From Cystobacter ferrugineus (GTDB lineage: Bacteria > Myxococcota > Myxococcia > Myxococcales > Myxococcaceae): a DNA stretch of 64,000 nt. Shown here piece after piece: positions 28,874 to 62,438 of the stretch; within the stretch, counting starts at the first letter, position 1; the number at the start of each line of letters is the position of its first letter. The stretch is from positions 845,733-909,732 of the forward strand of contig NZ_MPIN01000004.1 of NCBI RefSeq assembly GCF_001887355.1, given 5' to 3'. Under the pieces are notes generated by a model. The model was not told where the DNA came from. It saw only the letters and a list, made by a program, of their open reading frames with translations, and made no database searches. A program made the translations under genes and the position numbers.

Positions 28874-28946
28874 GCGCCGGGGGAGGCCACGCACCCGGGA
28901 TGTGGGCTCGTCTTGCTTGCCGGGCGCTGTGGTTTGCCGGTGTGGG

Positions 28947-29906: not shown

Positions 29907-30054
29907 GAATTCCATGATTGATTTCGATGTGGAGCGGCGCCTTCACGTGAACGCGCCGGGGTCTAGCCCCTTGGCGGATTCTGTCATGTCAACGGGCTAC
30001 TTGTCTTGTAGCTGACAGGTCCTTTATACGGACGCTTCACCGATAGAGGGGGTT

Positions 30055-33000
30055 GTGTTGTCCCGACAGCTTGGTAGCGGAGGGTCCTCGCCAGCAGGGC
30101 GCGGTGGCGTGTGGTCTGTCTCGGGGCCGCTGGGCGTCGCCCTGGTGCTGCTGTGGGCGAGCACGTCCTCCCTGGCCTTCGCCGAGGTTCCCGCGGACGT
30201 CACGGTCCTCGAGGTCAACCCCGCCAGTTACACGCAGGGATTGGCCTCGCGTCAGTCGGTGTCTAGAGCATTTCACGAGAGCAACTCGGAAAGCTACGAC
30301 TTCCTGGTGGTCTTTCCGACCTTCGCGACGACCTTCGAGGCAGGCGCCACGGGTTCGGATGCCCTGGGTCTTCATACCCAGGTGAGCAATGACGTCGAGG
30401 GGAGCGGCCATCTCGAGTTCGACAACGGCGCGTTCTTCGGCTCGCGCCGCCTCAAGGGCTACATCGACGTCGGAACGCTCCGGCCGGCTTCGACGGTGCA
30501 CCTGGATGCGGATTCCCTCCAGACCATTGCCCACGAGGTCGCGCACCAGTGGTCGGGGCAGGCGGGTGGAAACCTCGGACTGCTGGGCAGGGACGATGCC
30601 CATTGGAGCTTCTTCCTGAGCTCGAATGCCTCGGTGCTCTACGGTTCGGATTGGCGGAAGCAGGAGGACGGGAAATACCTCGCGTTCGAGTCGCGGCGGC
30701 GCTACTCGCCGCTCGACCTGTACCTGATGGGTTTCATGGCGCCCGAGGAGGTTCCCCCCTTCGAGTTGCTCCAGCCTGTGCCGGAATCTGGTCATTCAAC
30801 CACGGACCTGCCGCCGAACGCGGAGACCCGCATCGAGGTGAGTGGCGTCCGCCAGGTGACGGTGGCGGACATCATCAGAGTGCAGGGCCCGCGCATCCCC
30901 TCCGCGGCGACGTCCCAGCGGGATTTCCGCGCCGCCTTCATCCTGTTGGTTCCCCAGGGGCAGGAGGCGACTCCGGAGCAACTCGCCCATGTGGAGCGGG
31001 TGCGGACGGCCTGGGCCAACGAGTTCTTCTTCCTGACACGCGGCCGGGCCTTCATGCAGACCGAGCGGGTGGACCGGGTCCCGCGCAACACCACCCCGCC
31101 GGGTATCGATGCCGGCCTTGCCTACCTGCGCTCCCGGTTGAGCGAAGGTCACTGGAGCGATCATCCGGAGACGGCCGTCCGTGAGACGGAAGCGGCCCTC
31201 GCCGCGCTGGCGCTCTTCCAGAGCAGGGCCGGGGTCAAGGACGATGTCGACGCCGCCGTGGCCTGGCTCACTCAGTTCGTGCCCGGCGATGGTGACGCGC
31301 GGGCACGCCGGCTGAGGGGTCTCGCGTTCGCTCGCGAGCCGGATACGACGGGCCTCGAGGCCCTCGCGAACGATGCCGACCCCCTCGGGCTTCGCTCCCC
31401 AGGGGGGCGGGGCTATGCGCCTGGCTATGGCGCGACCGTTCTCGACACCGCGCTGGTCGGACTGGCGTTGACCGAGACGAGCGGTGGCGGTGGCGTGCCC
31501 CAGTCCACGCTCGATGGGCTCGTGTCCTACCTGCTTCAGCACCAGAACGCGGATGGAGGTTGGCCGGTCCTGGCTCGAGGACCGAGCCGGGTGGAGACCA
31601 CCGCGCTGGTGCTTCAATTCCTGGCCCGGAATTCCGAGCGGGATGACGTCGCCATGGCCGCGGGGGCGGCGTTCGCCTTCCTGGATGCGCGCAAGGGCCT
31701 CGATGGTCTCTACCGGGATGACCTCGATCTGCCGAGCACGACCGCGGAGGTTATCCTGGCCCTGGAGGCCTGGGACAAGCTTGCCTCCGCGGATGGCGTG
31801 CGTCTCATCGCCGCGTTCCAGGCGCTCCAGCGCGCGGATGGGAGCTGGGAAGGTTCGGTCTATCAGACCGCGCGCGTGCTCCGGGTGCTCCAGCTGTTGA
31901 CGGTGCCCAACCTGGCCGTGACCGGCGTGACCCTCTCCGCCTCCTCGGTGGTGGAGGGAGAGGGCGCCGCCGTGGATGTGCTCGTGTACAACACGGGCTT
32001 TGTTGTCTCGGCGAAGACGTGGGTGCAGGCCTTCGACAGCAATGGTGCTTCCTTTGGCTCTCCGGAGGAGCTTCCTGCTCTGGACCCAGGAGCCTCCACC
32101 ACCGTGCGGCTTCTGCTCGACACCGTCGGGCATGCGAATTCGCAGCAGTTGTTCGTGGTGGTGGACCCCTCGGGCACTCTCGACGAGACGCGTGAGGACG
32201 ACAACCGCGTCGCGGAGGACTTCATCGTCCATCCCGCGACCATCGGCGTGGATGTCTTCGTGTCCTCCGGGAGCGAGACCGTCTCTCCGGCGCGTGTGAC
32301 CCAGGTGCCAGCGACGCACGAGGTGTCCGTCCAGGTGGGCAACGCGGGGCGGACCACGGCGAGCAATGCCGTGGTGTCGCTCTATTCCGGGGGGATGCTG
32401 CTGGCCAGCCAGACCGTGCCGAGCCTGGCCCACCAACAACAGGAGCAGGTGAAGTTGTCGTTTCTCGTCGAGGGCGGCCCGTACCCCATCGACCTGCTGG
32501 TCCGTATCGAGCATCCGGGTGAAGCCGAGGCGAACAAGGACAACAACGCGGTCAGCCTGAGCCTGGGCGCGGATCCCCTCACCGTGGGGCTCGAGGTGGC
32601 CAGCCTCACCGTGAGCCCGGCGACGGTCGAGCAGGAGCAGACCGTGTCCCTCGCGTTCGATGTCTCGAACACGGGGACCGCCAGGGTGGACGGCGCGAAG
32701 GTGGCGGTGAGCGTGGTGGCCGCGGATGGGGTGGTCGTGGCGACGCTTCCGCTGGCGGCCGTGCCGGCGCTCGCTTCCGGTGAGACGAAGTCGGGCTCGG
32801 CGTCCTGGACCGCCACCTACGCGGGTTCCTATAGGGTGGAGGCGCGGGCCTTCTACGAGGGGAAGACCTGGGGCGGTGGCAAGTCGGCCCCGCTGACCGT
32901 CCACGCGCTCTCGACGCCGGATCTCGTGTTGGGGACGGGTGCCCTGTCCACCAATCCCCAGCCTCCGTTGGTGGGGAAGGAGGCGCGGATTTTCGCGAGG

Positions 33001-36000
33001 GTTCGCAACGCGGGAGCCGACGTGGGGCCGTTCAAGGTCGGGTTCTTCCTGGGCGACCCAGACGCGGGAGGCACTCTTCTGGGCCACGCCGACGTGTCGG
33101 AACTGAAGGAGGGTGCGTGGGCGGACGTCTCCATTCCCTACACGTTCACCTCCGCGAACGAGCATGTCCTGGTGGCGCGGGCTGACTTCGACGGAACGGT
33201 GGGCGAACTCAACGAGAAGAACAACTCCTCGACGCTCGCGGTCTCTCCCCGGCCCATCGCCGATCTGGTGCTCTCCGAGGGCGACATCCTCCCGGACAAT
33301 GCCTTCCCCAGGAAGGGGGAGAGCGTCTCCGTCAAGGTCTCCGTCTTCAACCAGGGAGGGCAGTCGTCGCAGGAGGCCCAGGTGAAGCTCTACCTCGGGT
33401 CACCAGAAGCGGCGGGCACGCTGATTGATTCGGCCTCCCTCCCGCCGGTGGAGGCGGGGGACCGCGGTCAGGTCTCCCTGACCTGGTCCACCAGCGGGCT
33501 CTCGGGTCCGCAGACGCTGGTGGCCATCGTGAATGGCGATCACGCCTTTGACGAGCAGAGCTTTGGCAACAACCGCGTCGAGCGCCGGGTGCTCGTTCAG
33601 GATGGCGCGGTTGCACTCACCGAGCCCTTTTTCTCGCCCAATGGCGATGGGGTGAAGGACTCGACCGAGATCTTCTACCGGCTCGCCGAGGCGGGACCCT
33701 CGGAAGTCCGGATCGCCACCCAGGAGGGGGTGCTGCGGCGGACGCTGACCGGGCCCGTGGCGGCCAGCTCGACTTCCGTCTCGGTGATTTGGGATGGACG
33801 GGACGAGAAGGGGCAGGTGGTGAAGGACGGGGCGTATCGTCTTTCCGTGTTCGCCGGTGAGGGCGAGGCGCTGGCTTCAGTCGGAACGGCACAGGTGGTG
33901 GTCGACACCAACGGCGTTCGGATCGAGGAAACCGACCCCTCGCTCACCCGCCATGCCTTCTTCAAGAACATCCTCGGGAAGCCCAAGGCCATGCCAGACG
34001 AAAGCGGCCTTGCCTTTATGTCCAATGGAGGAACTTCTGCTCCGCCCTGTGGCTTCTATTCGCAGCCCCTCCTTGGTGGCGACGCTGAGTTGATCTTCTC
34101 AGCAGGGCCTCGGAGGAGTGATGGGGCTTGTATCGACACAAATCGGCAGGGTGCTCTCGATACGCTGCTGGACTTCGCCATCTCCCCGGATGGTTCCACC
34201 GTGGCGTTCATCCACGTCAATGATTACCAGAGACGGGTGTCTCGTATCTCCCGAGGGCAGACGACTCCCGTACTTCTTCCAGTCGTGGTGGGTGACGAAG
34301 GCCCCCGAAGCCCGATTCTCTTTCAGGAAGGGTCGCAGAGGCTCTGGTTTGGCATTTATAAATTTACTCTTCCTGGGGATATTATTCGAAATGTCGATTT
34401 GTGGAATCCCAGTGATAGGGTGGATGTAATCGACACGAGAGCAGGCTACGTCGATTTCAAACTGTCATCCGATGCGAGCCGGATTGCGATGGAGAGTGGT
34501 ACCTCGTCTGGCTACGGCTCACGGTGCTTGTCGGCTATAGACGTTATGGGGAAGTATGTCTATTCCGATACGTTCAGATGCCAGACTATCAATCATGGGT
34601 TGTCCTTTGGTTGGGGGGCCGGGGGGAAGTACCTGCTCACTGTTCGTGAGAACGGGTTGGAGGGAGAGGGACCGACCACGTATGGTACGCAGTTGGTTTC
34701 CTATGATGTTAGTAGTTACAACCCAGGAGTCCACGAGACGCTTCTTGAACTCCCCTTCAGGACGTCCCAATACTCTAGTTTGAACCATTCGATTTCATTC
34801 GCGCCCAGCGTTCATGGCGATGCGTTGGTGTATAACTTCAATGATGGAGGTGACACCGACAATGCTGCCAGCCTGCCATTGCCGAGTAACGCCATTGGTA
34901 TCATCGCGCCGATTGTCAGTGGAACGCCCAGGCCCTTCGCACGGATTCCTGGAGTCATCCGGGTAAACTCCCTCAACTGGTCCCCCCGTGGCACCTTCCT
35001 CCATGGTGCCGTGAAGACCTCGGAGGGGGATGTGTACTGGGCCATGCACAGTCTGGCCAATCTTTCGGCGCAGATCCGGGCTTCCCGCCCTCCCGGCAGT
35101 TCGTCCATTTCCTTCCGTGGAGTCGCGTCCGATCTGAACTTCGACAGCTACACCGTCTCGGTCCGGCCTCTCGGGTCCACCTCCGCACCGGTGGTGCTCA
35201 CGCGTAGAACAACTCCCGTCATTGATGGAGTGCTCGCCACGTGGAGTCCCCCGGGGCCTGGAACGTATGAGGTGTTCCTCTCCGTCACCGACAAGGCGGG
35301 TAACTCCAGGCGGAGTACCACCAGGACCATCTGGTCCAATGCCGCGCTCGTTTCCAACCTCTCCGTCGACCCGGGTCTGTTTTCGCCCAACGGTGACGGA
35401 AAGCTGGATGCGCTCACGGTGCGGTACGAGCTCTCCAAGCCCATTACCACCGACTTCGTCGTGCTGGATGCGAAGGGTGACACTGTACACACCATCACCC
35501 GGGATCCTTCCGAGGATGAGGGGCGCGAATTCGTCTGGACCGGTTACAACGCGGCCGGGCGCGTCCCGGATGGCGACTACCTTCTCCGGGCGGACCGCGC
35601 AGTCACGGCATTCACGGTGGATACCACGCCTCCCGTCGTGGACCTGGCCTGGGGCAACCAGCTTCCCGATGGCAAGAACTACGCTCGCTTTCTCGATGCA
35701 TATCCGGCGTATGCCTACGACTCTACGGGCCAATCCGTGGCGATTCCCTCGGTGGGGGCCTGGGTCTCGTGGCGGAGTCAGGATTTGCACCCTGGAGAAG
35801 CCCGACTCGAGGCCTGGGTGGGCTCCGAGGCCACCGTGATCCAGGAGATGGGTGGCAAAAACGGTGGGATGGAGCACCGCCCCGTCGAGGAACTCCGGGG
35901 CGCGCGGCTGCGGGTGAGTTCCGTGGACGCGGCCGGAAACGCTCCATCGAGCAATCCGGAGTTGATGATCCCCGAGAAGCTCTTCCTGGTCGGCATTGGA

Positions 36001-39000
36001 GATGCGTCCGTAGTCGATTCCGCCGGCACGCTGCGCTACGGCGGGCGACAGATTCCGCGGATCGATCTGCTCCGCTGGGTGAGCAACGATCTGGAGGTGA
36101 GGCCAGATGGGCAGCCCCAGCCCAACCCGACCATGTCTCCCTCGGGTTTCTCCTTCAAGCCTCAGCGCTACGCCTTCGCGCTCGCCAACACCGTGGGCAA
36201 GCGCATCGTCTCCTACTCCGTGAGATACCCTTCGCCCGTGGGTGGGGGCGTGGTGGTGGAAGACACGCACGTCGCCAAGAACCTGAAGATGCTCGCGGAG
36301 GATGCCATCGTCTGGGATGCCCGGACCCTGCCGGAGCGGGAGTTCATCCTCACGATCGAGGCCCATACTGAAGATGGGACCTTCTCCACGAAGGTTCCCT
36401 TCTACCGGCCCGCCTCCGTGGGTGCTTGTGTCCAACAGGTGGCGGGGACGCCGATGGTCTCGGTCACCACGAGTCTGTCTTACACCGGTTCTAGTGACAG
36501 GCTCGCTCCCGGTGCGACCCTGCGCTTCTTTCCCGAGGGCAGTGCGACCGCGGAGCTGACCGCGGAAATTGAAACGGATGACGCCTTGATCGGTGACGGC
36601 CTCATCCATTACTCGACGCTCATTCCCCGCGGCAGCCTCACTCAGTGCCGGTACCGGATCGAACTCCAGGGGATGCGCGTGGATCGCCGTGATGTGGATG
36701 GGAACAGCTTCCTGAACGCGTGCGGCCTGCTTCCCGAGGTTTATCTCAACGGTTCGGAGCCGAATATCAGCGTTGTCGAGACGTTCGACCGGAAGGTCGA
36801 ATCCGTCGAGGTGTACCAGAGGGATGGCGCTGGCCATTGGAGTTTCGCCACACTGCTTCCCAGCTTCGAGGGCCGGGCCGTGGGGCTCCTTCCGGAGCTG
36901 GTGTGCGGCGCGGACAAATTGCGTCTGGTGGCGCGTCTGGCTGACGGCTCCGTGTTCGACAGCGCCCAGCCTACTGACTTCCGTTCTTGCGCCAAGGAGT
37001 CGGAGTCCAGTTGCGGACTCAACCTCCAGGTCTTTGTCGATCGCCGCGAGGGCCTCTCGGCTTGTGGGGCCCGGGACGCGATCTACGACATCAAGATCGA
37101 AACGGATGTCCAGGCCGGGGCGGGTGAATGGCGCATCGAGGCGTCGCTGGTCGACTCGAGCGCGCGCAGATACCCCGTGGGATTGATGTCCAGGGAGATC
37201 GCCGGGAAGGCCGTCGCCACGGGGGTCGTGGAGACCCACGCGGCCACCTCGCTGCCGGAAGGAGTGCTCAATCTTCATGCCGTCTTCACGGATGCCAAGG
37301 GCAGGAAGCTCGAGAACAAGCTGGCGACGTTGATCGTGGACCGGACGTTGCCCCGGTTGAGCATCGCCACCCCCGCCGAAGGTGCGTTGCTCTGTGCGGT
37401 GGAATCGCCTCTGTCAGACGGAACCCGGGAGAGAGCCTTCAACGTCATGGGAACGCTCTCCGATGAGTATCTGGAGTTCGCCGAGCTGAAGCTCCGGTCG
37501 GTTCAGGGCGCCGTGTCCCTCAATGAGGTTCTCTTCAAGGGTGAAAAGGGAAAGCCAGCACGGATCTCGCGGGTGGGCTCGCTCTGGAAGCTGTCGGTCG
37601 ATGAGCTGAGTCCAGGAGACTACGTGCTCACGGGTCATGCTCGCGATTTCAGTGGCGGAGAGTCCTGCCTGGCTCCTCGCACCTTCCACGTCAGTGATGG
37701 TGTTGCTCTGCAATCCGTGTATGCGACACCACGGGTCTTCGGTGGCCCTGGCGCCAACGTCAGCGAGACCGTGGTTCGCTATGAGTTGGATGGCACCGCG
37801 AAGGTGTCCGTGTCGGCCCTCGACCCGGAGGGGAAGACCGTGGTGCTCCAGTGGTCCACCGAGCAATCGCCAGGGAGCCATGAGTTCGACTGGAGCGGAA
37901 GTCTGGCGGATGGGTCTTCCATCAGCTTGAATGGCCGCTATCTGATCCAGGTGGAAGCTGTTGATGCTTGTGGCCGGACGGCGGTGGGGACCACGGAGGC
38001 TGTTTTCGACACGATCCCGCCCATGGCCACCATCACCGTGCCGGCGTCTGGCTCTTCCGTGGGCGCGGTTGTTGAAGTCAGGGGCACGGCGACGGATGCC
38101 AACTTCAAGAATTACACGCTCGAGTTCGAGGGGAGCACACTCGAGCCGCTGCTCTCGCCAATGCCCATCATGGCGGGGGTCCTTGGGTCGATCAGCACCG
38201 ACACCCTCTCCGCCGGCGACCACACTCTCGTGCTGGAAGTCCAGGATGAAGCGGGGTGGACCACGAAGGTGACGCGCTCGGTTAGCGTGTCGGCTGGCGA
38301 GGTGGTGGCTGGCTTCTCCCTTTCTCCTGGGCTCCTCTCTCCCAACCTGCCGTTGGGCAACAAGCAGGTTCTCGCCAGGATCGCGCTGCGGCAGCGCGCG
38401 GAGGTGATGTTGCAGGCCGAGCCCGCGCGTGGCCCGACCCAGACGCTCTTCACGGGGACGCTCAATCCCGGCGCTCCCGACGTGCGGCTGGCCCCGTCGG
38501 TGTTCGGTGGCCCGGGGTTCGAGGAGGATCGCGAGTACACCGTGAAGCTCATCGCCACCGCGGGGGCGATCACTGAGACGGCCCAGGCCCAACTCGTGCT
38601 GGACCACACTCCTCCCTCGGTCGGTTTTTCGATCTCCCCACAGAAACAGGGCTTCGTGCAGGGTCATGGACAGGTGATCGGCTCCATCTCCGATCCCCAC
38701 CTCACCTCCTGGAGTGTCCTCTTCGGTGCGGAGGGGAAGGAAGTGGAGATCGGCCGTGGCTCCGAATCACGGGAGCAAGAAGAGATCCTGGCCGAATTCG
38801 ATGGGCTGCCGGACGGGCCTCATCGGTTCGTGCTGACCGCCACGGATGGAGCGGGCAACAAGCGGGACCATACGGTGTTCGTCACCTCCGACATGACGTC
38901 TCCCCGCGTGGCGTTCCGCTATCCCCTGTCAGGTGAATACCTCTCCGAGCAAAAAATCCTCGGCCACATGCTTGTCGGTGCCCGTGTGTCCGAGACCCAT

Positions 39001-42000
39001 CCGTCCAGGTTGACGCTCGAGACCAAGCGGGATCTCGGCTCCACGCCGGTTCTGATTGGCTCCGTCGATCCCCTGGTCGAGGGTGATGTGGATGTACCGT
39101 GGGACATCAGCAGTGAGAGCGATGGTCGGGTGACGCTCATCTGGACCGCTTTGGATCTGGCGGGCAACAGCACCAGCACCGAAATCCCGGTGGTGGTGGA
39201 CAATACGTTGCCGCGCGCGGAGCTCACCAAGGTCTCGGTTTCGTCCGGCACCCTCCGGTTCGAGGGGACCGCGAGCGATACCAATCTCGAGTACTACCGC
39301 CTGGAACTCGCCAGCGGTCCTTCGTCGGGTGCCGTGCTCTTCACGGAGGTCGCCAGGGGCCAGGTGTCGACGGACGCGGGCACGCTGGTCGTACTGCCGG
39401 TGCTCCCCGCGGATGGCGTGTACACGGCCCGGCTCACCGTTTTCGATAAGGCAGGGAACGAGGAGACGAGCGAGCCGTACCAATTCGCCATTGACACCCA
39501 TCCGCCGAGGGCCCCGGTTCTCAGCGCGAAGGTGACGTCAGGCCGGAACGTCGCGCTCAACTGGACCCCCAATTCCGCTGACTCCGACATCAAGAGTTAC
39601 CGGCTGGAGCGTGCCACCGGGCAGGGAGCTTTTTCACTGCTGTCGACCGTGGATCATCCGGCCATCTCCAAGACGGATGAGGTCGCGACGAACGGCTCCT
39701 ACCGGTACCGGGTGATCGCGTTCGATGAGACCGGCCTTCAAAGCCAGCCATCCAATGAGGTCAGCATCGATCTCAACCCGCCGGTCGCCATTCTCTTCCG
39801 GCCGGCTCAGAACGGGCTGGTCAGCGGGCTCGTCGAGGTGCAGGGAAGCGCCTACGCAGCCGAGGACTTCAAGGAATACCGCCTCCTGCTCGGCGAGGGG
39901 CCCTCTCCCACGCAATTCACTCGCATCCTGTCGTCCTCGCAGATTGTCTCCTCCGGTCCTCTGGGCACGATCGACTTCTCCAATGAGGAGCAGGATTCGG
40001 TTCGGACGATCCGGCTCGAGGTCGAGGACACCCACGGCAATGTGGCGAAGGCAGAGGTCTCCGTGATGGTGGACAACCTCGCCCCGTTGCCTCCGAAGCT
40101 GCTCTCCGTCTTGCCACCGGATTCGGCCAACGTGACCGTGACCTGGGAGAAGAACAACGAATCCGATCTGGCGGGCTATCTGTTGTTCCGCAACGGTGTC
40201 CTGGTCAATTCGGCTGGAGTGTCTCCCTCCGACCTCACGGCGTATTTGTTGTCCCCGGCGTCGACGAGCTTCCTCGACAAGGATTTGCCGGACGGAGAGC
40301 ACACGTATGTGCTGCGGGCCATGGACAAGGCCGGGAACCTGAGCGAGCCCTCGAATGAGCTGAAGCACTCCCTGAGCCTGAAGCCCGCCGTGGCGAAGCT
40401 CACGTACCCGCCTTCGATGACGCGGCTCTCCGGGCCGGTCTCCCTGGAGGCCACGGCGACCGACCTCGATCTGACCGAGGTCCGTTTCTTGGCACGAGCG
40501 CGAAGCGATGAGGAGTTCCGGCCGATTGGTGTCGTCAAGACGTTCCCGTACACCCTGGATTTCGATCCGGCGAAATTCTTGAACGCCGTCGATCCGGAGG
40601 CCATCGACCCGACGGCCTTGGAAGTGAAGGCCGTGGCGTGTGATCCGTCCTGTGTGGATGACGCGTCCGTGGTCTCCGTCTATTATTTCTGGGACAAGCA
40701 GCCCAAGGCTCCGCTGATCTCCCTCTCGGCCGAGGTCTATACCGTCACGGTGAACTGGACGGATCAGAACCCGGACAGCTCGGTGGGTCATCTCGTTTAC
40801 CGGGGGACTTCGTTGATCGGCGCATCCAGCAGGCCGCGACCGGGTGCGAAGTCGATCCAGGCCATTCCTGCTCAGACGCCCGATACCGCGGCTCGGGCCT
40901 ACGACCAGAACGATTCGACGTACTGGACTTCCACCAGCGATAAACCTCGAACCTGGGAGATGGAGTTCCAACAAAGGATGGTCGTTGACCAGATCCATGC
41001 GGTCAATGCGCCCGGTGTCTCTGGTCAAAGAGCCCATCTGTGGGTGCGTGTGCGCGGACTCTGGGTGAGACTGAACCAGGAGGTGCAGGATCCCTCCGTG
41101 CCGGTGACGATCAATCCTCCGCTCGAGGTTGAGGCTGTCAGGTACGCCTTCCTCCAGCTGTCTTCGGCGCACTCGGTGGGTCTCGCGGAGGTCAAGATCA
41201 ACACCCTCCCGTTCGTCACCGGGCCGCAGCAGGACGTCTCGTGGTCGTACGGGACGACGACTCTCTATTCCGTCACGGCCGTCTCACCACTGGGCCTCAC
41301 CGCCAGGACCGAAGACACCATCACCACCTACAATCCGAGTGTCTATGCCCTCTCCTCGATGGTGGTGACGCCCAGGGTGGTGCTGCAGGGGGCGCTTGCT
41401 TCGTCTGGCATCATTCCCGCGAGTTCCACCATCGAGGTGCTCCGGGGTGATGCGCGAGAGGTCGTGGCGACGGGTACTGCCGGCGCCGATGGCAAGTTCG
41501 TGGTAACGACTCCGCTCGACGAGGGGCTGAACACGCTCTCTGTCCGGGCACGTTACCCGACCAACAATGTCAGCAGCGTTTCCTATCCCACCACCGTGAT
41601 CTACGAGCAGCTGCGCCTCGCACTGTCCTCGCGTGAGGTCACCGACTCCAAGGTGTCCTTCACGATCGATGTCTGTAAGGACACCAGTACGCTGGGTGAA
41701 TGCACTGCCGCGAGCTACGCCGACCGGCTCGATCGTCTCGAGGTGCGGCGTGTGCTCGCCACGGGAGGGACTCCCGTCACCACCACGCTGGGGCCGAGGC
41801 AAACACAGATCTTCTCGGAGACGAAGCCGCCGAACGGTCGCTATCTCTACACCGTGGTGGCGGTGGATCGGAGTGGCTCCGAGACCGCTCCCTCCAACAC
41901 ACTGGAGATCAATGTGGAGGCCACGCCTCCCGAGGCGCCTCAGGACCTCGCGGTGAATGCTCCCTCGGGCGGAGGGGAACTCCAATTGACCTGGAGTGGG

Positions 42001-50500: not shown

Positions 50501-53500
50501 GGGCTCGCCTCAGGATGAGCGTCATGGCCTCAACATGGTGAGAGCGGAAGTCATGGGGCCGCAGGGGCTGCTTCAGATCGATGAGCCCTTCTGGTTCACG
50601 GCGAAGCCGGGGCCCGTGAAGAAGCTCTCGACGAACCTCGCCAACTACCGGACCGTCTATGACGTCGGAGTCGAGCTGGGTCTTCCCATGGAGGTCACGG
50701 CTCAAGACGAATATGACAACTTCATCGCCAACCAGTCCATCACCTGGACGTCGGACAGTCCGGACGCGCGCTTCTTCGTTCCGAAGGCTGGTGGTGGGGC
50801 TCGCGTGCAATTCCTGGGCAGCGACCTGGACCAGACGCCGACGCGTGAAACGAAGAGTTCGACCCTGGGGTACTCGGGGGTGGGCTTCATCCCAGGCATG
50901 ACGCCGGGTCCCTACTCGGTGACCGCGCGGACTTCCATTCCGGGTTGCACGGCGAGTGACGCCTCGAGCTGCACGGTGTCTCGGCTTTTCACGCTCCAGA
51001 CGACGGCCGGGCGGGAGTTCATCTTCCGCGTGGCAACGCCAGACATCGGTATCAGTGACGGCGCGAGGTTCGCTGACATCCCCACGCCCCTCAACGCCGA
51101 GATCCTGCGGCGCAATTCCCAGGACAACAAGTGGACGCCGGTGACTGGCGAGGAGCCCGATATCCAGTCAGCGACCGTCACCATGAAGGTGTTGGATCAC
51201 TCCGAGGTCGTGTTGAGTTCCAGGACGGTCTCTCCGCATGAGCTCGGCGCGACGCCCTCGACCGAGCTCATCGACGGTAAGGACAACGTCGTCTTGTGGC
51301 CGGGCTATGATTTGATGGACGAGTACCAGTGGATCGACTTCACTGCCGCGGTGAAGCTGAAGGTACGTCCCCCGAGCAAGACGCCACCTCCAGATCCGAT
51401 CTTCGACACCTTCTACACGGTCTTCTATTACTCGGGTGTTCCGAAGGTTGCCTTTGGCACGCCGAAGGCGGCCGGAGGCGTGCAGGCCTTGGATGCATGC
51501 GGGCAGGTCAACCCGGATGACAGGAGCCTGTATCTCCAAATCTCCAACCCCGCGACCTTCCCCCTCTACGCGAAGTTGATTCCTCATCCGGATGGGGGCA
51601 TGGGCACGATGTTCCAGGTGTCGGACTCTCTGCCCAAGGATCCCGCCGACCCGACACGCCTGCTCGTTTCCCCGAAGGCCATCAACCACATCCCCCTCGA
51701 GCTGCCTGTCAGCTCGGTTGGTGGCAAGGTGGAGGTGGTGCTCTACGCGCCAGACTTCAAGGGGAGCGCGGCCAGCCGGAAGGAGATCAGCAGGACCTTC
51801 CTTCCGCTGAGCCGGACACGTGGAGGGGCGAAGCCCGCGGAAGCGCAGCTCCATGCGAGCATCGTCCTCTCGGTTCGCAACTTCGCGGCGGCCTGGTCCA
51901 AGCCGCAGGGGTCGGAAGGAGAGCCCATCCGGGTTCCGAAGACCATCCTTCGCCCCGCGACGCTTCCCATCTGCGTCAACGAGTCGGGCACGCTCCAGGT
52001 CATCTCGGGTGGAAATCTCGTCTCGGGAGCCCAGGTGACGCTCTTGTCGGGAGGTGCGCTGAACGTGCAGCCTCTGCCTCCCACGGACGGGCATGAAGTC
52101 CCCGTGCCAGGCGGTGGCTCGGCTGGCGTGCTCACCGCGGTGATTCCCCCTGGGGATCCGAGTGGTCAGGACGTCGTGGTGAAGTTCACTCCGGTGGACC
52201 CTCTCGCCACCATTCCGGACAGTACCGTCCGGCTCCTCACCTCGGTGGAAGACGCGAGCGCCCTGCCCCTGGGGCACACCTTCGTCAAGGATGTCAGCAC
52301 GGTCGACGGGCACCTGGTGAAGCAGTCGGTGGACCTGGAGGTCAAGGGGCGGAGCCCCGGGCTGCAGCTCGTGCGCAGCTATACGAGCCGGGGGCACGAT
52401 GCCAGCCCGCTCGGCGAGGGTTGGTCTCACTCGTACCGCAGCTATGTCCTGCAGTCCTGGAGCCAGGAGGACAACGTCGCCCGCTATATGTTGGTGGGAG
52501 GGGAGGGGACGGGTCAGACCTTCGACTGCAATCCCATTGATGACACCCAGTGCATCAACCAGGAGGGGTTCCATGGGACCTTCCGGAAGGAGAAGGTCAC
52601 CACTCCGGGGTCTGGCACGAAGGAGTTGCTGGTCTTCCGTGCGAAGGACGGAACCGAGTACCGCTACGGTCCCGTTGCCGCTTCGGAGAAGGGTCCGCGC
52701 TATCCACTCGTGTCCATCCGGAGCGCCACGGGCAACACGCTCGAGCTCGAGTACGGTGGGCTCGAGACCGACCAGGAGGTGAGCCGTGTCTTCGAGCCGG
52801 GCCGCCGGCGCTTCCTGCAGTTCTCCTATGAGCGTCCCGCTGGAGCCCCGCGCGCGCGGCTGGCCCGGGTGGACCTCTACCAGAACCCCCAGTCTCCCGA
52901 GCACCTGGGCGTCTGCATCGCCTATCGGTACAACGGCCAGAGCAACCTCTCGGCCGTCCAGCGCTATGACAGCCAGTGCCCTGACACTCCGGGGGCGTTC
53001 GCGGCGCTTCGCGAGGAGTCGTTCACGTACGTGAATAGCAGTGAGGAGGACCTGCGGAACAACCTGGAAAGTTGGACGGATGCCAACGGTCACACCACGA
53101 CCTATGTGTACTACGCGGCCGATGCTTCGCTTCCCGGTGAGAGCGATTACCTGGAGTTCGGGAGAAAGCAGGAGCGCATCCGGTTCGTGAAGGAGCCGGA
53201 AGGGGCCACGACCGAGTTCATCTATTCACTGACTCGGAGCGACGTGACGATCTTCGGCGTGCCCATCAAGGCCTTCGTGACCGAGGTGAGGGGTCCTCGG
53301 CCCGATGTCACCCAGGGCACGCGCTATTACATGGATCTCTATGGAACGGCGGTCCATGTCGAGCGGCCCTTGAGCGAAGGCGTCATGGCGACGACCTCCT
53401 CGGTCTGGTCGCCGGTGCACATGCGTCGGACCGCGGAGAAGGATGCCCGGGGCCGGGAGACGGCATTCTCGTACGACGCCCGCGGCAATCTCATCATGCG

Positions 53501-56500
53501 CCGGATCTCGCTCGCGGCCCTGAGCGCGCCTCCCGAGCAAGGCGGGAATACCCAGACCGTCAGGCTGGCCAGCCCGAATGCCGACCCGAATGCCATCGAG
53601 CAAGAGGTTGGCGAATACGTGGAGAAGTGGAGCTACGATCCCTCCTTCAACCAGCCCGTCTGCACGATGGATGCGGAGGGACGCATCACGACCCTGACAC
53701 TGCACCCCGGGACCGGGCTCGTGCTGGAGTCGCGGCGCTACGCGCAGCCGGTTTCTCGGAGTGACCGGTCGGGCACGATGTCGTGCGAGGAGCTCGCCTC
53801 CTTGCTGCCGACGAGTTCCGCGGACATCGTCCAGAAGAGGGCCTATTGCGGCGTCGCCGGGGGCTCCTGCCCGCAGAATGCCATCACGGGCGATCTGGTG
53901 GCGACCTGGACCGAGGGAGAGCTCAACCGCAACGACATCAAGAGCTATGACCTCTGGGGTCTGCCTTCCGTTCAGGAAGCCACGGTTGGTAGTGGCTCCC
54001 CGCCAATCGTCACCACTCTCGTTCGCGATTCGCATGGGATGGTCGAGCGGCAGGAGGACACCTTCGGACACGTCACGACCTGGGAGTACGATGGTTTGGA
54101 CCGTGTCGTCCGCACAGAGCGCCTCAATGACAAGGTGGCGGACGCCACGCGCCTGCCCACGGCGTCGCCGTCCATGACGCAGACGTTCAGCTACTACCCG
54201 GGAGGGCAGCTCCAGAGCGAAACGAATGGCATCGCCGGCTTCGAGCGCCACTACACGCTCGATGGGCTCAATCGCGTCAAGGAGGTCCGCGAGAAAGGCG
54301 GCCTGCTGACCGGGGAACTGGTCACCGAGTATGGCTATGACGAAACAGGCAATCGTACGCGGGTGACGGACCGCCGTGGGGTGACGACGACCACCCGGTA
54401 TGATTGGGGTGACCGTCCCATCGAGACCTCCGTGCAGGTATTGGATGGAGGGGGCGTGTACGCGAGCCAGGGCGGCGTGAATCCCTCGGGACCCCAGGTG
54501 ACCGCGACGTTCGGTTACGACGCCGTGGGAAACAAGTTCTACGAAACCGACCTCTACGGGCGCCGGACGGAATATGTCTTCAATTCACTCTACCGGAGGG
54601 TGGAGCGCAAATCGCCCACCGTGCCGGGTGCTCGCTTCGGGGATGGCGTCGTCAGTTACGTGACCACGAGCCGTTACGACCTCGTGGGCAACCTCACGAA
54701 GACGACCGACGGCAACGAGCACGCCACGTGGATGTTCCATGACTTCGCCAATCGCCTGGAACTCACGTGGGACGCCGCCGGACGCGCGGAGCACCGTCAG
54801 TACGACCACAATGGGAACCTGCTCGTCCTGAAGCGGAGCAGTGGTGGCTCCGTCAGCAATGGGAGCGTCAGCGGTGGTTCGGTCCACCTGACACAAACGA
54901 CGGAGTACGATGGGCTCAATCGGCCGCTGTTCGTACGGGAGCGGTACCAGCACCCGGATGAGAATGGCTCGCTCAGCTCGCGCGAGCGGAGCACCCAGAC
55001 GCATTACGCGGATGCGCAGAACGCCGTCACGGTCAAGGATGCCCGAGGCTTCTTGAATACGACGGTGAAGGATGACGCCGACCGTGTCATTCGCGTGGTG
55101 GTGGATGCCGCGGCGGGATCGCTGTCGGGACCGCTGACGCGTGATCCGGATGATCGGACGTTGGGCTCGGCCTTGAGCCTGACCACGCTGCATGGGTATG
55201 ATGGCAATGGCAATCTGGCCACCGAGGTGGATCCGCTTGGCCGCAAGACGACGCACTCGTTCGATGGCCTGAACCGGCGCCTGGAAACACATACTCCGAT
55301 GCAGGGGGTGGAGGAGAGCTTCTCCTATGATGGGGAAGGCTCCGTCATCGCCCATGTGGACGCACGGGGTGTGCGGAACGAGTTCAGCTTCGACATGCTC
55401 CGCCGGCCCGTCACCCATTGGCTGGTGGAGAGCCTGACCAAGGGAGGGGCACGGCTGGCCCTGCTGACGCGGACCTACGGCGAGACCTTGGACCGGCTGG
55501 CCTCCGTGAGGGAGGTGGATGCGCGAGGCAACCCCACCACTCGTTACTCGGATGCGCTCCAGCGGGAGATCCGCGTGGTGGACGCCAAGGGAAAGGAGCA
55601 GGCCACGCGCTACGATGCCGTCAACGTGCGCGAGCAGCGTGATCGCAAGAACTACGTCACGCGCAAGGAATACGACGAGGTCAATCGTCTGGTGGGGCAG
55701 CAGGACCTCTTGACGACGGGCGAGGTGAAGTACTCGCAATCCATCGCCTACGATGATGCCCACCAGAGCGAGACGCATACCGACCGCCGTCTCATTCCGC
55801 TGAAGAAGCAGATGGATGGCCTGGGGCGGGTGGTGCGCACCATTCGAGGGACCGCGGCGCCGTTCCAGACGGAGGAGACGGTCTACAACGCCGGGAACCT
55901 GGTGGTCGAAGGGATCGATGCGAACAAGCACCGCAAGGAGTGGCGGTACGACGGCGCTGGACGCAAGGTGTCCGAGACGCTCGGGGCGGGCAGTGCCCTG
56001 GCCGCGACGACGGCCTACCAATACGACGCGGTGGGCAACCTGGTGGAGCGGAAGGGGCCTCGCACGCGGAACATCGCTTTCGACGAGCACAACAGCTTCG
56101 ACTCGCTGAACCGGCTGGTGCGCCGAGAGGACGCGCTGGGCAACGTGTGGCTGACGGCCTACGACGCGGTGGGCAACAAGGTGTGCGAGAACCGTCCGCT
56201 CGGGTCGCCGCCAGCGTTGAGCGACACGCAGATCGCCGGGATGTCCCTGACGGAACTCCAGGACCAGGTGTGCGGTGGCACTCAGGTTACCCGGTACGAG
56301 TACGATGAGCTCGGCAAGCTCACCTCCGTGAAGGATGCGAACGGGGGTCTGCATACCTTCGTCTACGACGCCGCGCGTAACCTGGTGGCGAAACAAGATG
56401 CCCGGCAGAACCTGACGACCTACGAGTACGACGAACTCAATCTTCGTCAGGCCGAGCACCAGCATCTGGATGAGCATGCGCGGCTGGGAATTGGCAGCCG

Positions 56501-59231
56501 TGACAGTGTGCCTGGTGTCGAGGACGGGGTGACGGCTGAGGGTGAAAAGCGTACTCTCACCTGGAAGAGGACGTACGACCCCAATGAGAATCCCGATACC
56601 GAGACAGATTCGAAGGGACAGGTAACGACGTCTGTCCATGGGATTCTCGACAGGCTCGAGTCGCGCACCTTCGCCGTTCCTCTTGGGGCGCCACGGGAAC
56701 TGCCCTATCTGGAGGAACAGGGATTCGAGTACGACCCGAACGGTAATCTGCGGTTCGTTCATGAGACGAAGCAGACGCAGTCTGGCCAGGTGGTGGAGAC
56801 CACCACCCGCACGTATGACAATCTGGATCGCCTGAAGACGCAGTCGCGCACGTATGGGGAAGACTCCAGGGTTGTTGAGTACGAGTATGACGACAAGGGC
56901 AATCGCAGCCAGGTAACGGACCCGGATGGCGTCGTCACCACGTACACCTATGATGCGCTGGATCGGCTGGAGACGGCCGTGTTCGCCTCGCGCACCACGA
57001 CGTACCATTACTGGCCCGACGGATTGCTCAAGAGCATCGATTACCCCAATGGGGTGATGGAAGGCCGCTGCTACGACAATGCAGGTCGGTTGGAGATACA
57101 ACTGACCGCGAAGGGCTCCGTCAGTGAAGACTGCACCCATGGCTCTACCGCGACGCTCGTCCATCGCTCCGCGTATGGTTACGACAAGAATGGTAATCGT
57201 ACCAGCCTGAGGGAGCTGCGGGCCTCGGGGCCCGAGGAGTTGACCGAGTATGGCTACGACAAACTGGATCGGCTGGCCGGGACTCGTACTCCGGAGGGCA
57301 AGGCCATTCTCTATCGGCTGGATGCGGTGGGGAACAGGGAGGGAGAACGGGAGGCTCTCTCGTCCGACGTCGATTCGCTCGGGGCCGAAGCCTATGCGGC
57401 TTTGTCTTCGGACAAGCGGTTGCGCGATCTGACATCTACGTTCAATCGTGCGGACTGGCTGCGCATCATCACGGATGAGAAGGACGCGACTCGTAGCATC
57501 ACCTTCGACTACGACTTCAACGGCAACCTGGTGCTGAAGAAGAAGGGCGAAAGCAGGCGGACGTTCGCGTGGGACGTGCGGAACACGTTGACGGCCGTGT
57601 TCGATAGCGGCACGGAAGTGGGCCGCTATGACTACGATGTCAACCTCCAGCGGGTGAGCCGGAAGACTGCTTCCGAGCAGGTGTCGTATGTACTGGATGA
57701 CGACTTTGTTCTCCAGGAACTGGATGCGGCACAGCCGAGTCAGTCGGCGAAGCGCCGCTACCACTATGCGAAGGGCCCGCTTGCTGTCAGCGAGCTTGCC
57801 GGTAGTACCAGTACCAAACTTCTCCATACGGATGCTCAGGGCAGCGTGACCGATGTCACGTCTGATGTGGGAGCCGTTTCAACCACGCGTAAGTACGACG
57901 CCTGGGGTAATTACCGTGGAGAGACCGCGCCTTCGGCTACGGACTTCAAGCTGGGCTACACCGGGCATCAGTATGATCTGGAGACGGGTCTTACCTATGC
58001 CCGTGCCCGCTACTATGATAGCGACTTGGGTCGCTTTATCAGCCGTGACTCCTACGAGGGGCAACTGGCTGACGCACCCAGCCTTCATCGATACGCCTAC
58101 GCCCAAGGTAATCCACTCCGCTATCGCGACGAAAGCGGGCATTCGGCGACGGCTATCGGGGCAACCACTGGCTTCTTCTGGGGCTTTGGGCAGATGGCCA
58201 CCGCCATGGGCAGAGACCTCATCAACGGTCGTGCCCGCGACACCACCGACTATTTGTCTCTGTGGGGCCAGAATATCATTGGCGGCGCGGAGATTGGCGC
58301 ATCCATCGACTTGGTAATCGCCAGCGGTGGAACGCTCGCTCTGGCAGGGGCCGGCGCGCTGGGGGGCGCTGGCACGAATGCGCTCACCTTCGATGGAGAA
58401 GCGAAGAGTTGGTCCGAGTTCGTGGCCGGGCAGAAACACGGTGCCGCTTGGGGCGCAGCCGGCGGTGTGGTGCTAGGGAAGGCCGCTCCTCTGCTTGCAA
58501 AGGTACCCATCGTCAAGGAGGCTGTCGTAAAGGTCGGCGAGGCGGGCACGAGGCTCATCAGCCGGTATGTTGCTTCTGCGGGCGACGAAATTGTGACTGC
58601 CGCGCCAAACCTCTTCAAAGAGATGGGCTTTGGGTTTGGTGACGACCTTGGGATGACAGTCGCCCAGAGTGTCCAGCAGGGAGTGGCGGAGGTGGTCAAC
58701 GGTGGAGCAGTGACGGCTCCCGAGATTTCTGCAGGAGAATACCTCTCCACCACCGTCAATGGCGAACTGCACGTGACGGAAGAACTCCAGGAATCCTTCC
58801 GGCAAGAAGTCCGCGACCGTGCTGAGTACATGGTCAAGATCCTTTCGAATCAAGAACGAGGGCCCGTTCTGTCGGGAGTCTTGGATGTGCGGACGAAGGA
58901 GGTATTCTTCGGAATCAATCAGGACGGAGTTCCATCTTCCCTGCACCCAATTTTGCGCCAGCGGTTGGAGGAGTATTTGGCGCGAACTGGCGGCCAGACT
59001 CCTGCGAAGGCAGGGGTTCCTGGGGCACATTCTGAGATCGTAGCACTCAGTAAGGCACTACATGCACGAGAGGCTGCATTTGGAAGACCAGTGACCGCAG
59101 ATGATTTGGCGGAGTTCCTCATCCACAATCGCTCGCTGCGCGGTACAACCAAGGTGAACGGAATTCCTCCTCCCTGTGACAACTGCAGTGCGATTCTTCC
59201 TTCGGCTACGACGGTTTTGGGAGGGCAATGA
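47499..59231 (+). CDS. Giant RHS/YD-repeat polymorphic toxin with C-terminal YwqJ-type deaminase
   Basis: This 3,910-residue protein starts at GTG 47499, inside the end of the preceding gene and six bases after GGGAG. A signal peptide (VSAFFSFALVASA) is followed by coiled coil (about 34-170). Residues 220-445 form a transglutaminase-like domain with H406 and D434 but Asp (D312) at the Cys position. Ig-like domains include an invasin-like one (about 925-1145). The RHS N-terminal region (FVKDVSTVDGHLVKQSVDLEV) starts near 1595, and YD repeats fill about 1730-3440. The conserved RHS closing motif (YARARYYDSDLGRFISRD) lies near 3515 and ends the predicted shell. The variable tail (3548-3910) has a Gly/Ala hydrophobic stretch, then a deaminase fold with H3844-S-E3846 and P3892-C3893-x-x-C3896, the zinc site of cytidine-deaminase-like toxins. 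It is closely followed by a YwqK-type gene, the known partner of YwqJ. Confidence 0.92.
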   Translation: MVRALVSAFFSFALVASAATPPHAIRLGRSSPDVAELEAARARTAAHEARLRQQRASTVSTEQSARVAVLLQQAQAAAGQPPAGWRRLTSCVLVPDEHRQRMATAKARLEEAREAVRQGLAEARVHFDAVEVWLRRTGGGQNALARLSDERGRLESRAGELERTITEVSGVLSCDTGSVWDRLPGIWQWNRGLFAVDRLVSLRARLSELGMERGSGVLSADLTYVQGRLQPAQLPTQGITPAYQLAGTPGYELEDTTQDREVDLSSEITDKATALGSAKAAQEFVNNELRLDWYYGSLKGATQTLRQKRGNDADLAALLVALLRAQKTPARFVEGTIELPMGKLADLLGLLTEAESQAFYAAAAGGPPFELLDAKNKLVIAALGNTGIPYEPVVSGGLVRAVRLSHIWVEAYLPYGDYRGEGARRDGHQWVPMDPSIPGGPKYVVTEPALDVLAEMNVSAELLTQRYLAEGKGKSPLQFWKEEVTEFLSSRSDGLSYEQVLRQVVQKKQTLSLLPGALPYRVVSVQGEYSFLPENRKHRLHISAWDETGANILEVTLPTHLVAGRRAILTYEPEDSSLIPSDGIYHAPAALVQLRAALRLDGVVRATATGLVGLGVRHRWAVEMLLPDGSKRQVENELIAGNTVALGLGTPFNNAPEPQSPSEKGADGQASTFLAGRAAAYVNEWTKAEEELARLTRVVPVRPTASLVLVENQLQVREAFGVREQVVWKGLEVDADLRSLAPLELVTGRGGALLRLSGYEGSFQEAKVLADKVSVPAATMTAVSAVTLLQEALSRGVPVVRVDSSNLDTALGSVAAPPEVLADVRELVTRRREVLIPATQLTIENWSGTGFIARDPQTEEGGYFLSGRLSGGQTVVSPDRWSDQQLVDWLERPDAPSPTDDLTKVARISKVPSTDLQRGTVGQALPRTLEVVVVTGDNTPVPVRGALVTFRGDQGSNAKFKADLRELAPASSVTVRTDAAGRARVHAFPDTDIGHLYVLASGSPQDERHGLNMVRAEVMGPQGLLQIDEPFWFTAKPGPVKKLSTNLANYRTVYDVGVELGLPMEVTAQDEYDNFIANQSITWTSDSPDARFFVPKAGGGARVQFLGSDLDQTPTRETKSSTLGYSGVGFIPGMTPGPYSVTARTSIPGCTASDASSCTVSRLFTLQTTAGREFIFRVATPDIGISDGARFADIPTPLNAEILRRNSQDNKWTPVTGEEPDIQSATVTMKVLDHSEVVLSSRTVSPHELGATPSTELIDGKDNVVLWPGYDLMDEYQWIDFTAAVKLKVRPPSKTPPPDPIFDTFYTVFYYSGVPKVAFGTPKAAGGVQALDACGQVNPDDRSLYLQISNPATFPLYAKLIPHPDGGMGTMFQVSDSLPKDPADPTRLLVSPKAINHIPLELPVSSVGGKVEVVLYAPDFKGSAASRKEISRTFLPLSRTRGGAKPAEAQLHASIVLSVRNFAAAWSKPQGSEGEPIRVPKTILRPATLPICVNESGTLQVISGGNLVSGAQVTLLSGGALNVQPLPPTDGHEVPVPGGGSAGVLTAVIPPGDPSGQDVVVKFTPVDPLATIPDSTVRLLTSVEDASALPLGHTFVKDVSTVDGHLVKQSVDLEVKGRSPGLQLVRSYTSRGHDASPLGEGWSHSYRSYVLQSWSQEDNVARYMLVGGEGTGQTFDCNPIDDTQCINQEGFHGTFRKEKVTTPGSGTKELLVFRAKDGTEYRYGPVAASEKGPRYPLVSIRSATGNTLELEYGGLETDQEVSRVFEPGRRRFLQFSYERPAGAPRARLARVDLYQNPQSPEHLGVCIAYRYNGQSNLSAVQRYDSQCPDTPGAFAALREESFTYVNSSEEDLRNNLESWTDANGHTTTYVYYAADASLPGESDYLEFGRKQERIRFVKEPEGATTEFIYSLTRSDVTIFGVPIKAFVTEVRGPRPDVTQGTRYYMDLYGTAVHVERPLSEGVMATTSSVWSPVHMRRTAEKDARGRETAFSYDARGNLIMRRISLAALSAPPEQGGNTQTVRLASPNADPNAIEQEVGEYVEKWSYDPSFNQPVCTMDAEGRITTLTLHPGTGLVLESRRYAQPVSRSDRSGTMSCEELASLLPTSSADIVQKRAYCGVAGGSCPQNAITGDLVATWTEGELNRNDIKSYDLWGLPSVQEATVGSGSPPIVTTLVRDSHGMVERQEDTFGHVTTWEYDGLDRVVRTERLNDKVADATRLPTASPSMTQTFSYYPGGQLQSETNGIAGFERHYTLDGLNRVKEVREKGGLLTGELVTEYGYDETGNRTRVTDRRGVTTTTRYDWGDRPIETSVQVLDGGGVYASQGGVNPSGPQVTATFGYDAVGNKFYETDLYGRRTEYVFNSLYRRVERKSPTVPGARFGDGVVSYVTTSRYDLVGNLTKTTDGNEHATWMFHDFANRLELTWDAAGRAEHRQYDHNGNLLVLKRSSGGSVSNGSVSGGSVHLTQTTEYDGLNRPLFVRERYQHPDENGSLSSRERSTQTHYADAQNAVTVKDARGFLNTTVKDDADRVIRVVVDAAAGSLSGPLTRDPDDRTLGSALSLTTLHGYDGNGNLATEVDPLGRKTTHSFDGLNRRLETHTPMQGVEESFSYDGEGSVIAHVDARGVRNEFSFDMLRRPVTHWLVESLTKGGARLALLTRTYGETLDRLASVREVDARGNPTTRYSDALQREIRVVDAKGKEQATRYDAVNVREQRDRKNYVTRKEYDEVNRLVGQQDLLTTGEVKYSQSIAYDDAHQSETHTDRRLIPLKKQMDGLGRVVRTIRGTAAPFQTEETVYNAGNLVVEGIDANKHRKEWRYDGAGRKVSETLGAGSALAATTAYQYDAVGNLVERKGPRTRNIAFDEHNSFDSLNRLVRREDALGNVWLTAYDAVGNKVCENRPLGSPPALSDTQIAGMSLTELQDQVCGGTQVTRYEYDELGKLTSVKDANGGLHTFVYDAARNLVAKQDARQNLTTYEYDELNLRQAEHQHLDEHARLGIGSRDSVPGVEDGVTAEGEKRTLTWKRTYDPNENPDTETDSKGQVTTSVHGILDRLESRTFAVPLGAPRELPYLEEQGFEYDPNGNLRFVHETKQTQSGQVVETTTRTYDNLDRLKTQSRTYGEDSRVVEYEYDDKGNRSQVTDPDGVVTTYTYDALDRLETAVFASRTTTYHYWPDGLLKSIDYPNGVMEGRCYDNAGRLEIQLTAKGSVSEDCTHGSTATLVHRSAYGYDKNGNRTSLRELRASGPEELTEYGYDKLDRLAGTRTPEGKAILYRLDAVGNREGEREALSSDVDSLGAEAYAALSSDKRLRDLTSTFNRADWLRIITDEKDATRSITFDYDFNGNLVLKKKGESRRTFAWDVRNTLTAVFDSGTEVGRYDYDVNLQRVSRKTASEQVSYVLDDDFVLQELDAAQPSQSAKRRYHYAKGPLAVSELAGSTSTKLLHTDAQGSVTDVTSDVGAVSTTRKYDAWGNYRGETAPSATDFKLGYTGHQYDLETGLTYARARYYDSDLGRFISRDSYEGQLADAPSLHRYAYAQGNPLRYRDESGHSATAIGATTGFFWGFGQMATAMGRDLINGRARDTTDYLSLWGQNIIGGAEIGASIDLVIASGGTLALAGAGALGGAGTNALTFDGEAKSWSEFVAGQKHGAAWGAAGGVVLGKAAPLLAKVPIVKEAVVKVGEAGTRLISRYVASAGDEIVTAAPNLFKEMGFGFGDDLGMTVAQSVQQGVAEVVNGGAVTAPEISAGEYLSTTVNGELHVTEELQESFRQEVRDRAEYMVKILSNQERGPVLSGVLDVRTKEVFFGINQDGVPSSLHPILRQRLEEYLARTGGQTPAKAGVPGAHSEIVALSKALHAREAAFGRPVTADDLAEFLIHNRSLRGTTKVNGIPPPCDNCSAILPSATTVLGGQ

Positions 59232-59647
59232 TGTTGCGTGTACCGTTCGACGACCTGACAGTTGGCGACGATCAGTTGATGCATTTGGAGGATCGTCCAT
59301 TCACCGGTGTGGCGTTCGAAAGTTTCCCCAACGGGGGATTGGCGGGAGAGTCCGAGTACGTTGAAGGTCTAATGCAGGGCCGAAGCCGCACTTGGACTGA
59401 ATCTGGATCGCTCGTAGAGGAGGCGCGTCACTGGAGCGGTGTTCGGCATGGTCTATGTCGCGCTTGGAATGAAGGGGGAAAGCTTCGCTCCGAAGCAATG
59501 TATGAGTACGGAATTCTCGTCTCGGAACAGAGGTGGGACGACAGCGGGGGTCTAGTTCGAGATTGGAGAATCACCCCTGATGACCCCCTCTCCAGGGTGC
59601 TCGAATTGAATCGGGCAAAGTTCGGAGGGCGCGCACCACCGGTTTGA
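59231..59647 (+). CDS. YwqK/MORN-type immunity protein for the RHS deaminase
   Basis: The product has 138 residues from ATG 59231 (TGATG overlap with the RHS stop; GGGAGGG six bases upstream). An ATG directly before it at 59228 would be too close to the ribosome site. The protein is a run of short beta-hairpin repeats of the MORN/YwqK kind, with phrases such as PFTGVAFESFPNGGLAGES, GLMQGRSRTWTESGSL, GVRHGLCRAWNEGGKL and GILVSEQRWDDSGGL. It has no signal peptide, so it protects in the cytoplasm. In Bacillus subtilis YwqK is the antitoxin for the YwqJ deaminase; the gene order here is the same. Base composition is lower in GC than the RHS core, as usual for exchangeable toxin-immunity tails. 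Neutralisation of this toxin is inferred. Confidence 0.88.
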   Translation: MLRVPFDDLTVGDDQLMHLEDRPFTGVAFESFPNGGLAGESEYVEGLMQGRSRTWTESGSLVEEARHWSGVRHGLCRAWNEGGKLRSEAMYEYGILVSEQRWDDSGGLVRDWRITPDDPLSRVLELNRAKFGGRAPPV

Positions 59648-59811: not shown

Positions 59812-59839
59812 TCTTCTTGCGCTCGAATGAGGGCGCGCG

Positions 59840-60598: not shown

Positions 60599-60698
60599 GA
60601 AAAGCTCCTTTCCGGAGGACGTCGGCTCTCCGGTTCGTACCTGGCGGGTCCTCTATCGCCTCGACCCCCCAGGGGGCCAGTCGGGATAGAGTCGCGGT

Positions 60699-62432: not shown

Positions 62433-62438
62433 GACGAG

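Follow-up and report, generated by a model that had tools for sequence, protein, structure and literature searches.

Zhang et al. (2012; PMC3482391) described RHS toxins that combine a signal peptide, an inactive transglutaminase, Ig domains, and a variable C-terminal toxin, and they suggested that this dead domain binds peptides and so serves as the anchor of the toxin. Rhs4 and Rhs5 of Myxococcus xanthus, as presented in the available part of a review (PMC10433427), are proteins of about 4,000 aa with a signal sequence, which are encoded on mobile islands, act independently of type VI secretion (T6SS), and take part in kin discrimination. Bacterial teneurin-like proteins are exported YD-shell polymorphic toxins with an autoproteolysis motif and an immunity gene, and are enriched in Myxococcota; teneurins are repurposed YD-shell toxins (PMC13018210). 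For the class of very large Rhs proteins in myxobacteria, a 2023 review (PMC10047993) lists recognition as unknown. The problem addressed here is how the very large, signal-peptide-bearing Rhs toxins of Gram-negative bacteria reach the cell surface and stay on it without a T6SS.

The window analyzed was a stretch of 64,000 nucleotides from Cystobacter ferrugineus (contig NZ_MPIN01000004.1, forward-strand positions 845,733 to 909,732), and coordinates are those of the window unless another locus is named. Three genes follow one another on the + strand, encoding a giant scaffold (gene 1, 30055-47514, GTG start, 5,819 aa), an exported RHS protein (gene 2, 47499-59231, GTG start, 3,910 aa), and a predicted immunity protein that Pfam identifies as MORN_2 (YwqK-type; gene 3, 59228-59647, 139 aa). 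Genes 1 and 2 overlap by 16 bases. The overlap of genes 2 and 3 is 4 bases if the first ATG is used (59228, in the context ATGA) and 1 base if the second is used (59231), so that the single base given by the first-pass annotation holds for the second start only. The N-termini of both giants are signal-peptide-like, as judged by eye. The three-gene arrangement, two overlaps, and signal peptides of that annotation could all be read directly from the frames. Separate promoters or terminators had been named as an observation that would speak against a single unit; no sigma-70-like promoter or intrinsic-terminator-like site was seen at either junction, in a scan that is weakly informative in a high-GC myxobacterium. 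GC at the three codon positions was 63/49/78% for gene 1 and 65/48/80% for gene 2, and homologues of both giants occur as frames of the same length in over a dozen genera (5,466-6,375 aa for gene 1, and about 3,800-4,070 aa for gene 2 when complete). Codon-position GC and these homologues with matching frame lengths indicate that both giants are real genes. The unit had no match in a library of defense systems.

Comparison by blastn with three congeneric genomes revealed that the three genes are part of a larger block of ~30.95 kb (28881-59830, assigned to no strand). In G092 the sequences corresponding to 21229-28880 and 59831-62466 are adjacent, with about 8 bases between them, and the same is true of G091 and G093. 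The empty site (28,880|59,831) is thus found in two close congeners, whose TldD neighbor is 97% identical, and in one more distant, with about 8-22 bases between the flanks. Since the congeners have an empty site, the block is an insertion of about 30.95 kb. Neither direct repeats nor an integrase were found at its ends. The extent of 30055-59647 proposed earlier is correct for the three genes and too small for the unit, which includes a SurA/parvulin-type peptidyl-prolyl isomerase (PPIase)-like gene (28947-29915, - strand, Pfam Rotamase/SurA_N) divergent from the scaffold gene. In G066 this site is without the block, a separate copy of which, again with the PPIase gene, is found elsewhere in the genome; homologues at 73% lie beside the scaffold gene in both G063 and G066. 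The PPIase travels with the block in two genera and could be a chaperone for the giants; it was rejected as a third conserved component, being found beside the scaffold in genera g1 and g3 only. The window also holds a gene for a Calpain-family (Peptidase_C2) cysteine protease (62477-63523, - strand) and one for a 727-aa WD40-repeat protein (10285-12465, - strand).

Gene 2 encodes, in order, a signal peptide, a helical stretch, a pseudo-transglutaminase (pseudo-TGL) platform, Ig-like stretches, DUF6531, an RHS/YD cage, a pair of Asp residues, and a YwqJ tail, with Pfam matches to Transglut_core, DUF6531, RHS repeats, and YwqJ-deaminase. The platform (48171-50228, + strand, about aa 225-910) is supported by the Transglut_core match and by an AF2 model having a pLDDT of 88 and a pTM of 0.87. 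When the model was subjected to a fold search, its first half matched the transglutaminase fold (3isr, Z 11.5, 156 residues, 4.4 A); the match covers about residues 22-341, and the second half gave no clear match in that search. The catalytic Cys, which occupies the fourth column of GND[C/A]D, is replaced by Ala. DUF6531 and the RHS/YD repeat cage extend over 52293-58127 (+ strand, about aa 1599-3543, Pfam and profile matches). At the end of the cage is an aspartyl autoproteolysis-like motif (58047-58139, + strand) of two Asp 27 apart, a spacing that exceeds that of the canonical DPxG-x18-DPxG-like motif; both Asp are kept in 11 of 11 complete relatives. Of T6SS-type features, gene 2 has no PAAR match and its N-terminus is Sec-type, and Pfam detected neither a TPS domain nor an Omp85-type transporter in either giant.

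We then examined 195 Myxococcota genomes for co-occurrence of scaffold and platform. Of these, 18 have a scaffold N-terminus of the full type and 17 a strong platform match; both were present in 16, the scaffold only in 2, the platform only in 1, and neither in 176 (Fisher p about 2e-20, uncorrected for phylogeny). Pairwise distances of the N-terminal parts of the two proteins were correlated (r=0.93), a value reached in 0 of 5,000 permutations. The first-pass annotation had held that scaffold homologues usually unlinked to RHS genes would count against the pairing; instead, at 11 of the 18 scaffold loci the platform gene overlaps, abuts, or lies within 9 nt (G000, G063, G066, G053, G126, G131, G119, G034, G147, G013, and G069). 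Two unrelated genes (2.6 kb) separate the pair in G101; contig ends cut the locus in G028, compatible with adjacency, and the loci in G003 and G005 run off their contigs. The true exceptions lie in genus g7 (the Hyalangium group, which includes Hyalangium versicolor; loci L103/L104): in G099 and G100 the two genes are present at separate loci, and G098 carries a scaffold and no platform, also at the profile level. The upstream neighbors of the pair vary from genus to genus, and the adjacency is therefore not inherited synteny; ordinary synteny was ruled out by these genus-specific neighbors together with the empty site in congeners. At one of these loci (start of L069; G126:C134, near 239 kb), in Myxococcus sp. 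RHSTA-1-4, the gene just upstream of the scaffold gene resembles that of a phage tail sheath, hinting at a prophage or eCIS neighbor.

When the Ig-like region encoded by gene 2 was used as the query, a shorter class of RHS proteins (about 3,083-3,202 aa) emerged from genomes of g6 and g19, in which profile positions 4-90 are joined directly to positions ~843-948, such that only the ~750-aa platform is missing. The 12 genomes with the short class only have neither a scaffold HExxH domain nor a platform by profile searches, and short RHS toxins evidently manage without the scaffold. G119 has one RHS protein of each class, and it is the long one that adjoins the scaffold. At two loci (G126a and G013) RHS is replaced by a metzincin-like end (HExxHxxGxx[H/N]) that follows the platform in the same protein; these proteins of about 2,000 aa are encoded directly after the scaffold (L101:2813-8818 in G126; L079/L080 in G013). 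Because genomes with only short RHS proteins are scaffold-free and metzincin-like platform proteins are paired, the scaffold goes with the platform and not with the cage. The contrast presented by the short class could stem from few evolutionary events. The earlier proposal that the scaffold is a dedicated partner of the RHS toxin was therefore kept as to the conserved pairing, sharpened in that the scaffold tracks the pseudo-TGL platform, and abandoned as to the RHS cage as such.

In a wider scan of about 85,000 genomes, relatives of the platform were found beyond Myxococcota in Nitrospirota, Desulfuromonadales/Geobacteraceae, and Desulfobulbaceae (Desulfobacterota). A scaffold homologue neighbors the platform at L111 and L112 (Nitrospirota), L113, and L114. 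The order is RHS, a small SUKH-looking gene, and scaffold at L113 (Geobacteraceae), and scaffold then RHS at L114 (Desulfobulbaceae). Several RHS-less platform proteins of Nitrospirota/Desulfuromonadales (L109, L115, L117, L122, and L124) showed no scaffold within the flank examined, indicating that the platform can exist alone. In the A4 alignment, the transglutaminase Cys (GNDCD) is kept in six RHS-less relatives (L111, L112, L115, L116, L121, and L134) and lost in all RHS-fused platforms. This pattern gives the appearance of a transition from enzyme to dock, and suggests that docking arose in a partner pair whose transglutaminase was once active. Possible, though somewhat short of probable, is a general two-protein system for extracellular display in at least three phyla, composed of an HExxH-headed multi-Ig scaffold and a transglutaminase-derived dock with interchangeable effectors, either RHS cages or metzincin-like proteases. 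A stand-alone 210-aa frame on a Nitrospirota contig (L133:16495-17127) matches only the last ~190 scaffold residues, ending ESWESRWYSY; a transposase-like gene and the remains of a platform gene lie near it.

The reading we favor, with a probability of about 0.6, is that the locus is a mobile polymorphic toxin-immunity unit in which the pseudo-TGL platform has a dedicated partner in the giant scaffold, which would serve display outside type VI secretion. The two genes might instead have been transferred together with no physical partnership, the scaffold being a surface adhesin or protease in its own right that shares a mobile island and transcription with the toxin. The block does move as a unit, the PPIase gene accompanies it in some genera, and Hyalangium-group genomes tolerate separation of scaffold and platform. 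Yet where a single internal module is missing from the RHS protein the scaffold is missing too, G099 and G100 retain both genes after their separation, the scaffold is also paired with the non-RHS platform proteins of G126a and G013, and outside Myxococcota the pairing recurs with the genes in either order. We consider simple co-transfer unlikely for these reasons.

The label of scaffold given to gene 1 in the first-pass annotation proved incomplete, as the protein begins with an invariant HExxH domain that is metallopeptidase-like in look. After the signal peptide come the HExxH domain, an alpha/alpha toroid, CARDB, FlgD_ig, Big, and fn3 domains, beta-propeller-like stretches, and a C-terminal ...YWESRW, with Pfam matches to CARDB, FlgD_ig, Big_13, and fn3. 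The HExxH domain (30232-31074, + strand, about aa 60-340, alignment A2) contains H160, E161, and H164 as well as H183-W184-S185, all invariant in 18 homologues, and no Pfam peptidase family matched the scaffold, the HExxH motif notwithstanding. The toroid (31102-31929, + strand, about aa 350-625) is of the terpene cyclase/complement TED-like type by profile search, with squalene-hopene cyclase and the C4/C5 TED chains as matches. Most homologues have a YWESRW-like C-terminus, and three g19 (Myxococcus) genomes, G147, and G013 have an unrelated ending. An AlphaFold model of the scaffold N-terminus, computed with a four-sequence alignment, had a pLDDT of 42.

These features bear on a second alternative, that the giant is an export or maturation factor, either a two-partner-like secretion protein or a processing partner whose HExxH protease releases or activates the RHS cage. 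Such a role would agree with the invariance of HExxH across the 18 homologues, with its retention in the Nitrospirota and Geobacteraceae scaffolds, and with the conservation of the HExxH segment, which ranks with the highest in the protein. However, Pfam found no outer-membrane beta-barrel or POTRA domain in the scaffold, and about 5,000 aa of Ig, CARDB, and fn3 modules would be unusual in a processing enzyme, making this role quite unlikely.

The variable tail of gene 2 (58128-59228, + strand, aa 3544-3910) carries a YwqJ-like deaminase (aa 3778-3902; PF14431, 51 bits) with intact HSE and PCxxC (PCDNC) motifs. RHS cores of relatives are 35-80% identical to the window protein to about aa 3540, after which identity falls to background, even in the closest relatives G063 and G066. 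Among 11 complete RHS proteins there are about ten unrelated terminal domains, with only the tails of G066 and G100c alike. A small ORF is located 3' of most RHS genes, at -63 to +32 nt, with lower third-position GC, and differs from locus to locus; apart from MORN, downstream immunity assignments were based on position, size, and low third-position GC. A Pfam search of the ten other tails and ten downstream genes gave nothing above cut-off except TPR in one. The protein therefore joins a constant delivery part to a variable C-terminal toxin, and the MORN gene that overlaps it directly downstream is assigned to immunity by gene context. The first-pass annotation had called an RHS protein with a C-terminal deaminase a polymorphic toxin, which the intact motifs, variable tails, and MORN gene bear out, and had proposed to test whether tail and immunity gene vary while scaffold and RHS core stay together; the pair does stay together across relatives in which tails and downstream genes change. 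In G053, an incomplete RHS frame that has a signal-like start of its own lies directly 3' of the immunity gene (L106:21504-22727) and is probably a displaced toxin cassette.

The toxin domain itself has a sole other carrier, G063, among the 58 other genomes searched, as G121 matches the pre-toxin stretch only. The strongest support for the window's toxin-immunity pair comes from an unrelated locus of G063, where the same deaminase (60%) forms the end of a lipoprotein-like protein and a MORN homologue (47%) is encoded by the adjacent downstream gene. The gene annotated earlier as YwqK-type is MORN_2 by Pfam, and the toxin-immunity pair recurs at this second locus. The G063 frame (L150/L138; G063:C9, about 147.6-148.5 kb) encodes 394 aa with a lipoprotein-like signal, MRYLGLLLCGLLTACAG, and is SitA-like in its arrangement. 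Because this lipoprotein carries the same pair, the YwqJ/MORN cargo is probably common to several delivery routes. That the unit instead forms a teneurin-like apparatus for cell-cell adhesion or kin recognition and not for killing, the tail being a signal or a relic, is very improbable: the repurposing of YD-shell toxins as teneurins (PMC13018210) and the adhesive look of a multi-Ig partner would fit it, but tails are swapped wholesale along with the small downstream gene, the tail of gene 2 retains its deaminase motifs, and an unrelated lipoprotein bears the same toxin next to a MORN gene.

For the favored reading, display of a caged toxin by its scaffold, we propose the following course of events. 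The unit was acquired horizontally, as a block inserted at a site that is empty in congeners. The RHS protein would be exported by Sec and then fold its YD-repeat cage, which may cut itself at the aspartyl motif and would hold the YwqJ-type deaminase tail, with the MORN protein shielding the producer cell. We infer that the scaffold, most likely extracellular or outer-membrane-associated and with a putatively active HExxH domain, binds the catalytically dead transglutaminase domain; on sequence grounds, we nominate the giant protein as the binding target of this domain. Docked in this manner, the caged toxin, or the metzincin-like protease in variants, would be presented and delivered to neighboring cells, presumably bacterial targets, with no need for type VI secretion. 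Kin discrimination would be the likeliest use, if Rhs4/Rhs5, which act independently of T6SS (PMC10433427), are taken as the analogy. With a giant partner that tracks one defined module, the question of Rhs surface display becomes testable.

SitA proteins are lipoprotein toxins of outer membrane exchange. The G063 lipoprotein with the same YwqJ toxin and MORN immunity gene resembles this type, whereas the toxin in the window sits in an RHS cage and not on a lipoprotein. With bacterial teneurin-like proteins (PMC13018210), gene 2 shares export, a YD-shell that matches the structures 9pt5 and 9ifo, an autoproteolysis-like motif, and an immunity gene. It differs from them in having the pseudo-TGL platform and a partner gene, with no lipobox seen and no NHL (Pfam) or FN-plug match and no PDB match ahead of the shell in a sequence-level search, at which remote similarity is possible. 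Compared by description only, it resembles Rhs4/Rhs5 in size, signal sequence, T6SS independence, and location on a mobile island; the available part of the review (PMC10433427) mentions no partner, and the window RHS protein has one. A literature search reaching few subscription journals returned no description of the giant partner, of its co-absence with one module, or of the metzincin swap. Within that search, the earlier statement that no described system has this exact pairing stands for the giant partner but not for the RHS half, which has the layout of the class in the accessible text of PMC3482391: a signal peptide (by eye), then a transglutaminase minus its catalytic residue, then bacterial Ig domains and an RHS array, with a variable toxin. 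That text names no partner, whereas here there is a giant partner gene and a metzincin-like alternative to RHS. The RHS toxin class, the toxin, and the immunity protein are already known, and the unit as a whole is conserved and partly new; the pairing of its giant partner with the platform suggests a purpose for the dead transglutaminase noted there in 2012.
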